Below are positions 26,266 to 29,994 of a DNA stretch of 64,000 nt, in pieces. The stretch is taken from contig CALGKB010000007.1 of NCBI GenBank assembly GCA_937927915.1, positions 124,001-188,000 on the forward strand, given 5' to 3'. The stretch's first letter is position 1, and each line of letters starts with the position of its first letter. The notes beneath the pieces were generated by a model, which ran no database searches, was not told the origin of the DNA, and saw only the letters and a list, made by a program, of their open reading frames with translations. Source of the DNA: an uncultured Pseudanabaenaceae cyanobacterium (lineage in GTDB: Bacteria; Cyanobacteriota; Cyanobacteriia; Pseudanabaenales; Pseudanabaenaceae). The translations under genes and the position numbers were made by a program.

Positions 26266-26937
26266 CTAGGCGAGACCGTAGGCAGCCATCTTCATAATTT
26301 CTCTGGAGGTAAAACCAATATTACCAAGGGTTTCACTGTATTGGGTCATAAAATCTGCCATCAACTCCTCCCGTTCCATGCCTAGGGTACGGGCATCCGC
26401 GGTCACCTGATTGAGCATCTGCCACACGAGGGGCAGGTTTTGGCGGTTAGCTGCTTCGATGTCCTGTTTCACCTGGGCAAAGTTTGCCTTGAGCCACTCC
26501 TCCCCAAAACTCAGGTGCAGGTATTCGTCTTTTAGCACCCCTTCCGTAATCTTGCGGGCAAAGGGGTCCGCCACAGGGATATAGATGTTGTAGGCAGCAA
26601 TGGCGAAACACTCCACAATCAGGGCTTGAATGACCAGACAGGTGACTAGATTGCCCTGGCGGAGGGCATCGTCAAAATTCTGCTTGAGGGCGGCAAAAAA
26701 TTGGCGGGCGTATTCCATATCCGGGGTGACCTCCAGGTTCTTGCCACAGGCAGTAAACCCCTTCTTGTGCCGCTCCTCCATCTTGGCAAGTCTGTGGAGT
26801 TCCTCCGATCGATCGGGCAGGAGCTGAGTGAGAGCAATGTAGTTGTCGTGGGCCTCCTGTTCACCTTCAATGACAATGGCGTTGATGCGGCTATAGGCAT
26901 CTCTGTAGGTGGGGCATTGGTAATTGATGACAGTCAT
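26266..26937 (-). CDS. ado: Aldehyde-deformylating oxygenase
   Basis: Non-heme di-iron enzyme converting fatty aldehydes to alkanes plus formate. From the ATG at 26937 the protein has 223 residues; the long open frame upstream (to 27042) passes through a terminator hairpin and is not coding. Iron ligands are visible: Glu in [11 protein letters not shown], Glu-x-x-His in [10 protein letters not shown], Glu in [12 protein letters not shown] and Glu/His in [15 protein letters not shown]. It heads the ado-aar pair, whose alkane product resides in thylakoid membranes. Confidence 0.97.
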
Positions 26938-26999
26938 CCTAGCGCTGGGAATTCGTATCGGTTTGTAACTAATTGTAGGGCAATAGCTCACCTTGTTTG

Positions 27000-28150: not shown

Positions 28151-29029
28151 ATGGATTTTGCCCCTGCGCTGCCTGTATTTCTCATCACTCTGCGGGAAGG
28201 TTTAGAAGCTACTTTGGTCATCGGTATTGTCCTGGCATACCTGACAAAATTGGGGGCAAAACACCTCTTCCCATCGGTCTATTTGGGCATAGGGGCGGGC
28301 ATTGCCGCCAGTGTCCTATTGGGATTTGCTATTACCTACGGTCTCGATCGGGTAGGTCTGGCGCAGTGGCAATATGCCCTGGTGGCAAAACATTTTTTAG
28401 AGGTTTTGGTGGCAGTCATAGCGATCGGTTTGTTGAGCTGGATGTTGTTGTGGATGACGCAAACTGCCAAGGGTCTCAAAGCAGCAATTGAAACAGCGGT
28501 GGGGGTAGCGGTGGCAACAGGCACGGGCATTTTTAGTTTGATTTTTATTGATGTCCTTAGGGAAGGGGTGGAGACAGCCCTGTTTATTGGTGCCCAGGCA
28601 CAGCGAGATGGAATTGCCCTGGGGGGAGCGATCGGGGGGATAGCTGCGGCTGCCCTGCTGGGGTGGCTACTCTTCCAGGGGGGGGTAAAACTGAACCTCA
28701 AACTCTTTTTCCGCGTCATGGGATTTGTCCTTCTCCTAATCGTAGGGGGCTTGGTGATTACTGCCCTGCGCCAGTTAGAGTTGGGTATAGAAGCCTGGAG
28801 TCACATTTCCCCCACGGTGCAGGCTTGGTGTGCTGGCAAACCCTCCTGTGTCCTGGGGGGGCAAGTATGGGATTTGAGAGCGGTGTTGCCCGATCGGCAA
28901 TTTCCCGGTGTCCTCCTTAAAACTCTCCTGGGCTATCGGGACAGGCTGTATTTGGGGCAAGGGATCGCCTACCTGGCATTCCTCCTACCGATGGGCTGGC
29001 TCTACTGGCGCCACCTGGCGGGGAAATAG
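28151..29029 (+). CDS. FTR1 family iron permease
   Basis: High-affinity iron (or divalent metal) permease in the plasma membrane, 292 residues with about seven helices. Both metal-binding REGxE motifs are present: REGLE at residues 15-19 and REGVE at about 138-142. The start ATG at 28151 opens directly with the first helix, MDFAPALPVFLITL; the longer open frame upstream runs through the promoter. No multicopper oxidase or EfeO/EfeB partner is nearby, so it is a single-component member of the family. Confidence 0.92.
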   Translation: MDFAPALPVFLITLREGLEATLVIGIVLAYLTKLGAKHLFPSVYLGIGAGIAASVLLGFAITYGLDRVGLAQWQYALVAKHFLEVLVAVIAIGLLSWMLLWMTQTAKGLKAAIETAVGVAVATGTGIFSLIFIDVLREGVETALFIGAQAQRDGIALGGAIGGIAAAALLGWLLFQGGVKLNLKLFFRVMGFVLLLIVGGLVITALRQLELGIEAWSHISPTVQAWCAGKPSCVLGGQVWDLRAVLPDRQFPGVLLKTLLGYRDRLYLGQGIAYLAFLLPMGWLYWRHLAGK

Positions 29030-29036
29030 GGGCGGG

Positions 29037-29042
29037 TATAAT
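29037..29042 (+). promoter_or_regulatory. Likely -10 box of the MPBQ methyltransferase gene
   Basis: TATAAT located 28 bases upstream of the ATG at 29071. With it, transcription would begin at about 29049-29050, directly at the left edge of the HLR1-like element. Confidence 0.45.
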
Positions 29043-29049
29043 AGACAGC

Positions 29050-29067
29050 AATGTAACATTATGTAAA
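29050..29067 (-). promoter_or_regulatory. HLR1-type element (predicted RpaB binding site)
   Basis: Read on the minus strand the 18 bases are TTTACATAATGTTACATT. This fits every position of the published HLR1 consensus (G/T)TTACA(T/A)(T/A)NN(G/T)TTACA(T/A)(T/A), which is bound by the response regulator RpaB. It covers the predicted transcription start and ends three bases before the ATG of the MPBQ methyltransferase. A site at this position would be expected to repress the promoter when RpaB is bound, that is, in low light. Confidence 0.6.
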
Positions 29068-29070
29068 GGT

Positions 29071-29994
29071 ATGGATTGGACAGTCGGCACGTTAGGATTG
29101 GGGTTGGGAGCGATCGGGATTTATGTGGCATCGGCGCGCCCCTACAAGTCCAAGGAATCCGTGGCAAACTCCTATGATGAGTGGACAGCGGACGGCATTT
29201 TAGAGTTTTACTGGGGGGAGCACATTCACCTGGGGCACTACGGCAATCCGCCGGTGGCTAAAAATTTTATCCAAGCGAAAGTAGATTTTGTGCATGAGAT
29301 GGTCAAGTGGGGCAACTTACCTAAGGGGGGGAAGCTCCTGGATGTAGGCTGTGGTATCGGCGGTAGCAGTCGCATCCTAGCGCGGGACTACGGTTATGCA
29401 GTTACAGGTATCAGTATCAGCCCCAAGCAGATCGAGCGGGCAAAGGAGTTGACTCCCGCCGACCTACCTGTGCAGTTCCTAGTGGACGATGCCATGGCGA
29501 TGTCCTTCCCCGACAATACCTTTGATGTGGTGTGGTGCATTGAGGCGGGTCCCCATATGCCGGACAAACAGCAATTTGCGCGGGAGTTGATGCGGGTGTT
29601 GAAGCCGGGGGGTGTCCTAGTGGTGGCGGACTGGAATCAGCGGGATGACCGCCAAGTACCCCTCAACTGGTGGGAACGGATTGTCATGCGGCAATTATTA
29701 GACCAGTGGTCCCACCCCTCTTTTGCTAGTATAGAAGAATTCGCGGCAGCCTTAGAGGCGACAGGGATGGTAGAGGGAGCAGTGATCACTGCCGACTGGA
29801 CAGCAGAAACTTTGCCCTCCTGGTGGGACTCGGTGTGGCAGGGGGTAGCCCGCCCTGAGGGTCTCCTCAAGTTTGGCGTGCCCGGGTTTATTAAGGCGAT
29901 GCGGGAAGTGCCCACGATGCTACTTATGTGGCTGGGGTTTGGCTCTGGTCTCTGTCGCTTCGGGATGTTCCGCGCCCAGAAGAAATTGAGCTAG
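29071..29994 (+). CDS. 2-methyl-6-phytyl/solanyl-benzoquinol methyltransferase
   Basis: SAM-dependent methyltransferase acting on MPBQ and MSBQ in tocopherol and plastoquinone synthesis. The 307-residue protein opens with a membrane-anchoring helix (about residues 5-22) and carries the SAM motif LLDVGCGIGGSSRILA (about residue 92), DAMAMSFPDNTFDVVWCIEAGPHM and the family signature WNQRDDRQVPLNWWE. The sequence follows closely the pattern of the Synechocystis Sll0418-type enzyme. An HLR1-like site sits directly upstream. Confidence 0.93.
   Translation: MDWTVGTLGLGLGAIGIYVASARPYKSKESVANSYDEWTADGILEFYWGEHIHLGHYGNPPVAKNFIQAKVDFVHEMVKWGNLPKGGKLLDVGCGIGGSSRILARDYGYAVTGISISPKQIERAKELTPADLPVQFLVDDAMAMSFPDNTFDVVWCIEAGPHMPDKQQFARELMRVLKPGGVLVVADWNQRDDRQVPLNWWERIVMRQLLDQWSHPSFASIEEFAAALEATGMVEGAVITADWTAETLPSWWDSVWQGVARPEGLLKFGVPGFIKAMREVPTMLLMWLGFGSGLCRFGMFRAQKKLS

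Follow-up and report, generated by a model that had tools for sequence, protein, structure and literature searches.

Results and Discussion

An HLR1 element in front of a quinone methyltransferase gene raises two questions: whether the element works as an operator for RpaB and, if it does, which pathway it would govern. The window, meaning the whole stretch of 64,000 nucleotides that was analyzed, holds the following features at this locus.

28151-29029, plus strand: FTR1-family iron permease gene (PF03239, 157 bits), ending 41 bp before the methyltransferase ATG
29037-29042, plus strand: predicted -10 box TATAAT, with a predicted start site at about 29049-29050
29050-29067, minus strand: HLR1, predicted RpaB operator, exact to the consensus; from 29067 to 29050 it reads TTTACATA-AT-GTTACATT
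29071-29994, plus strand: gene for a SAM-dependent methyltransferase of the MPBQ/MSBQ type (Sll0418 type), assigned to the last plastoquinone step (Pfam Methyltransf_11, 92.4 bits)

We consider the 18 bases at 29050-29067 to be a functional RpaB operator, one that exerts repression because it lies across the methyltransferase start site, with a probability of roughly 0.8. This reading is based on the exact consensus, its rarity, its conservation before orthologues, the presence of an RpaB gene, and the occurrence of the other exact sites at hli and ubiC. The start site itself, RpaB binding, repression, and the light response at the methyltransferase are what we infer from these observations.

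The HLR1 element and its core promoter

A pattern search found zero mismatches over the 18 positions of KTTACAWW-N2-KTTACAWW, the consensus printed for RpaB binding (PMC13421787; PMC11633204). The element consists of two 8-bp direct repeats spaced 2 bp apart, and no other exact HLR1 occurs in the window; the full-consensus element of the initial annotation is borne out. That annotation also described a TATAAT eight bases upstream; the box is present, and the distance is 7 bases. Three more bases separate the HLR1 end from the ATG at 29071. If the TATAAT is the -10 box, the element would lie at about +1 to +18 relative to the predicted start site, as in its earlier placement on the start site, just before the ATG. 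Published sites between -38 and +23 relative to the start site lead to repression, while those at -45 to -66 lead to activation (PMC13421787).

Other features of the promoter are less clear-cut. No good -35 box precedes the TATAAT (CCTGGC stands at 29014-29019), the promoter scan did not call the plus strand at the methyltransferase a promoter, and no terminator was found between the FTR1 and methyltransferase genes. The missing -35 box and terminator, together with the activating positions known for this motif, would fit an RpaB operator that activates from further upstream, or one that has little effect, most transcription of the gene being read-through from FTR1. We regard this as unlikely, since the TATAAT directly before the HLR1 stays in place when the upstream gene is replaced, and, so close to the ATG (3 bp), the element cannot precede the gene's own start site by 45 bp. 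The repressor site that we propose does not, so far as we can tell, control the FTR1 gene.

Two further observations concern promoter-like sequences in the window. On the minus strand, 29038-29067 contains a promoter-like pair, TTTACA-18-TATTAT, from which antisense transcription could run into the FTR1 gene. Separately, 26952-26979 (minus strand) carries three tandem HLR1-like half-sites, CCTACAAT-TA-GTTACAAA-CC-GATACGAA, with two mismatches per pair. They cover a TACAAT box and are about 14 bp upstream of the ATG at 26937, which is probably the real start codon of an aldehyde-deformylating oxygenase gene.

Rarity of the motif

Under mono- and dinucleotide models of the window, an exact HLR1 is expected once per 47 Mb, or 0.05 times per genome. 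The earlier estimate of one match in tens of megabases thus holds for random sequence. The 2.40 Mb genome contains three exact matches against the 0.05 expected; work at the genome scale relied on the pattern search and on the stretches surrounding its matches. We also searched for the reversed motif. This control is partly compromised, since a one-base shift makes it overlap with real HLR1s. Over 38 family genomes it gave 43 exact matches and HLR1 gave 92; the corresponding figures within the genus are 1 and 10, and the control matched once in the genome itself. Across the whole family, the empirical background is therefore higher than random-sequence models give. At three mismatches there is no genome-wide excess (559 sites against 547 for the control), so only near-exact sites are informative. 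An Rfam search of five HLR1 loci returned no match.

These counts bear on whether the 18-mer is a chance match, or whether its repeats are the -35-like hexamers of the antisense promoter TTTACA-18-TATTAT. AT-rich intergenic DNA lifts the background, the reversed motif reaches 43 exact matches in 38 genomes, and the promoter scan calls the minus-strand site promoter-like. Set against the 0.05 exact sites expected per genome, the conservation of the site in orthologues of another genus, and its company at hli and ubiC, we find this explanation highly improbable.

RpaB and other HLR1 sites in the genome

The same genome encodes RpaB (L065, 1015-1794; NF045944, 395.8 bits against a cut-off of 330). 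None of the three exact HLR1s is more than 36 bp from a start codon. Besides the methyltransferase site, there is one 36 bp upstream of an hli gene, which encodes a chlorophyll-binding domain, and one over the -10 region of a cyanobacterial chorismate lyase gene, ubiC (NF037993, 259 bits against a cut-off of 175), whose surroundings are as follows.

L004, 880-1520 (G000 C4:36953-37582): ubiC and the neighboring TPM-domain gene, each with its own HLR1 (exact and one mismatch, respectively) over a TACAAT or TATAAT box

The one-mismatch sites of the genome include this TPM-domain (Psb32-like) gene and psbA, identified by sequence; psbA is an RpaB target. A two-mismatch site stands in front of the curated Psb32 gene. 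In relatives, exact HLR1s precede hli, psbA, Psb32, and an apparent FtsH gene. Judging from the sites near hli, ubiC, psbA, and Psb32 in this genome and its relatives, HLR1 is a live regulatory word in the Pseudanabaenaceae.

The arrangement resembles the known RpaB-repressed high-light regulon, in which HLR1 covers the start site at hliA, hliC, nblA, crtP, and ubiC/ycf21. Here, too, an exact element occupies a predicted -10/start region, RpaB is encoded, and HLR1 is found at hli, psbA, and ubiC. At ubiC and the TPM-domain gene, the element overlaps the -10 box in antisense orientation, as at the methyltransferase, whereas the hli and psbA elements cover the core promoter in sense orientation. 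The methyltransferase site shares the pathway, the antisense orientation, and the core-promoter position of the ubiC/ycf21 site; it differs in serving the last step instead of the first, and it begins 7 bp past the -10 box, while the ubiC element overlaps the box itself. Both hli and ubiC/ycf21 are listed among RpaB-repressed targets (PMC13421787). None of the papers examined, which include PMC13421787 and PMC11633204, lists the methyltransferase as a target, and a text search for the locus tag sll0418 gave no match.

A different OmpR-type regulator that recognizes a similar site, RpaA or an SrrA-like paralogue for example, might bind the 18-mer instead. The genome encodes six further OmpR-type DNA-binding proteins, one of them RpaA-like by sequence, and RpaA and RpaB are reported to compete at shared promoters (PMC13421787). 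Of the three top candidates that were scanned, though, just one scores above the cut-off of the RpaB model, and the remaining exact HLR1s mark high-light genes of the RpaB type, which makes a different regulator very unlikely.

The methyltransferase and its pathway

The product of 29071-29994 has a class I SAM-dependent methyltransferase domain and full-length orthologues in cyanobacteria that are 69-93% identical, with values of about 70-79% for those spread across the cyanobacteria; among the matches listed, there is no second full-length homologue in its own genome. We take it to be an MPBQ/MSBQ methyltransferase from established knowledge of the Sll0418 family. Among NCBIfam models, none scored above its cut-off for this protein and none was listed by the MPBQ/MSBQ name.

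The initial annotation proposed light-controlled repression of tocopherol and plastoquinone methylation. The HLR1 identity, the overlap with the predicted start site, and the repressor reading are well supported by the RpaB gene, the hli and ubiC sites, and the conservation before orthologues, while the tocopherol part fails because the pathway genes are absent. The genome has no tocopherol cyclase, which is present in 37 of 59 cyanobacteria, and no 4-hydroxyphenylpyruvate dioxygenase (HPPD). Nor is there a homogentisate prenyltransferase among its four UbiA-type enzymes, which are CtaB, 4-hydroxybenzoate prenyltransferase, ChlG, and MenA. We therefore rejected a tocopherol role; with that pathway missing, the enzyme should serve plastoquinone alone, and MPBQ is not expected in the cell.

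By cyanobacterial orthology and established knowledge, the protein belongs to the same family as the MPBQ/MSBQ methyltransferase of a 2002 study, which acts in both plastoquinone and tocopherol synthesis as cited in PMC5159609; the host genome here differs in lacking the tocopherol genes. That paper also states that VTE3 is absent from cyanobacteria (PMC5159609).

The distribution of the gene within the family is uneven. G007, G010-G014, G016, G017, G021, G023, G025, G029, G030, and G032 have no close methyltransferase orthologue, and the best matches in these same-family genomes, several of which are complete, reach only E values of 1e-8 to 1e-16.

Conservation before methyltransferase orthologues

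Scanning promoters of homologous genes for the same site had been suggested as a check, and the outcome agrees with the proposed operator within the family. In the sister species G003 (protein 93% identical) the 18-mer is unchanged. In G002 (79% identical), GTATAATAG and the repeat TGTAACA are kept and the second repeat is lost, leaving two mismatches. The gene upstream differs from the FTR1 arrangement in G002, and the -10 box and one repeat are still retained; GTATAATAG, the -10 box region, is invariant in three species of the genus, including G002.

Six of the 17 Pseudanabaenaceae orthologue upstream regions contain an HLR1 with no more than one mismatch, and its orientation is the same in all of them, against 0.017 expected from dinucleotide shuffles; these orthologue counts, like those below, come from mutually related sequences and are not independent events. 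In another genus, apparently Pseudanabaena, five orthologues carry an HLR1 with 0-2 mismatches in the same orientation, at 38-95 bp from the ATG, a geometry unlike that of the 29050-29067 site. A good HLR1 is missing before the methyltransferase in about half of the family orthologues and in most distant cyanobacteria.

Outside the family, none of 69 orthologues has an HLR1 with at most one mismatch within 150 bp. Two-mismatch sites precede 11 of the 69, against 0.9 expected. Nine of the 11 coincide in position, 10-12 bp ahead of the ATG, and in eight of the nine the degenerate form is also the same, TTAATATT or GTAATATT-N2-TTTACAAT, adjoining a TAAAAT-like box. The second half of this candidate site runs into the ribosome-binding region. 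Patchiness was equally evident in 40 further sampled genomes and the best class loci, and for this reason we rejected universal conservation of the HLR1 across cyanobacteria.

Distant cyanobacteria from several orders also share a conserved leader, roughly gATAAAATTGTAAAnAAATATTAAGG, ahead of the methyltransferase ATG; it resembles a half-degraded HLR1.

Loci with the conserved leader: L077, L081, L083, L085, L087, L090, L117, L126, L149, and others

A possible feedback on plastoquinone supply

Electrons pass from photosystem II to the cytochrome b6f complex on plastoquinone, and NblS-RpaB reads the redox state of the electron chain around this carrier. In the mechanism that we propose, the HLR1 of the NblS-RpaB system would lie on the methyltransferase start, at about +1 to +18. 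RpaB would occupy the HLR1 in low light and block RNA polymerase. Once high light had reduced the acceptor side of the electron chain, RpaB would leave, and the methyltransferase gene would be derepressed, allowing more of the last-step methylation of plastoquinone-9. Light thus probably controls the amount of plastoquinone made.

The matching HLR1 at ubiC, absent from the initial annotation, is the more interesting part. The ubiC enzyme converts chorismate to 4-hydroxybenzoate, the first step of plastoquinone synthesis, so exact HLR1s stand on the first and last steps, and both ends of the pathway would answer to one redox signal. We give even odds to the broader proposal that RpaB jointly controls ubiC and the MSBQ methyltransferase, with photosynthetic redox state feeding back on plastoquinone amount, and that the TTAATATT-N2-TTTACAAT form by the -10 region in distant cyanobacteria is an ancestral trace.

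On the present genomic comparisons, the methyltransferase is a well-supported addition to the known RpaB regulon. What is new is that the photosynthetic redox state probably feeds back on the supply of plastoquinone: if RpaB does set that supply at both ends of the pathway, the sensor and the thing sensed would form a feedback loop.
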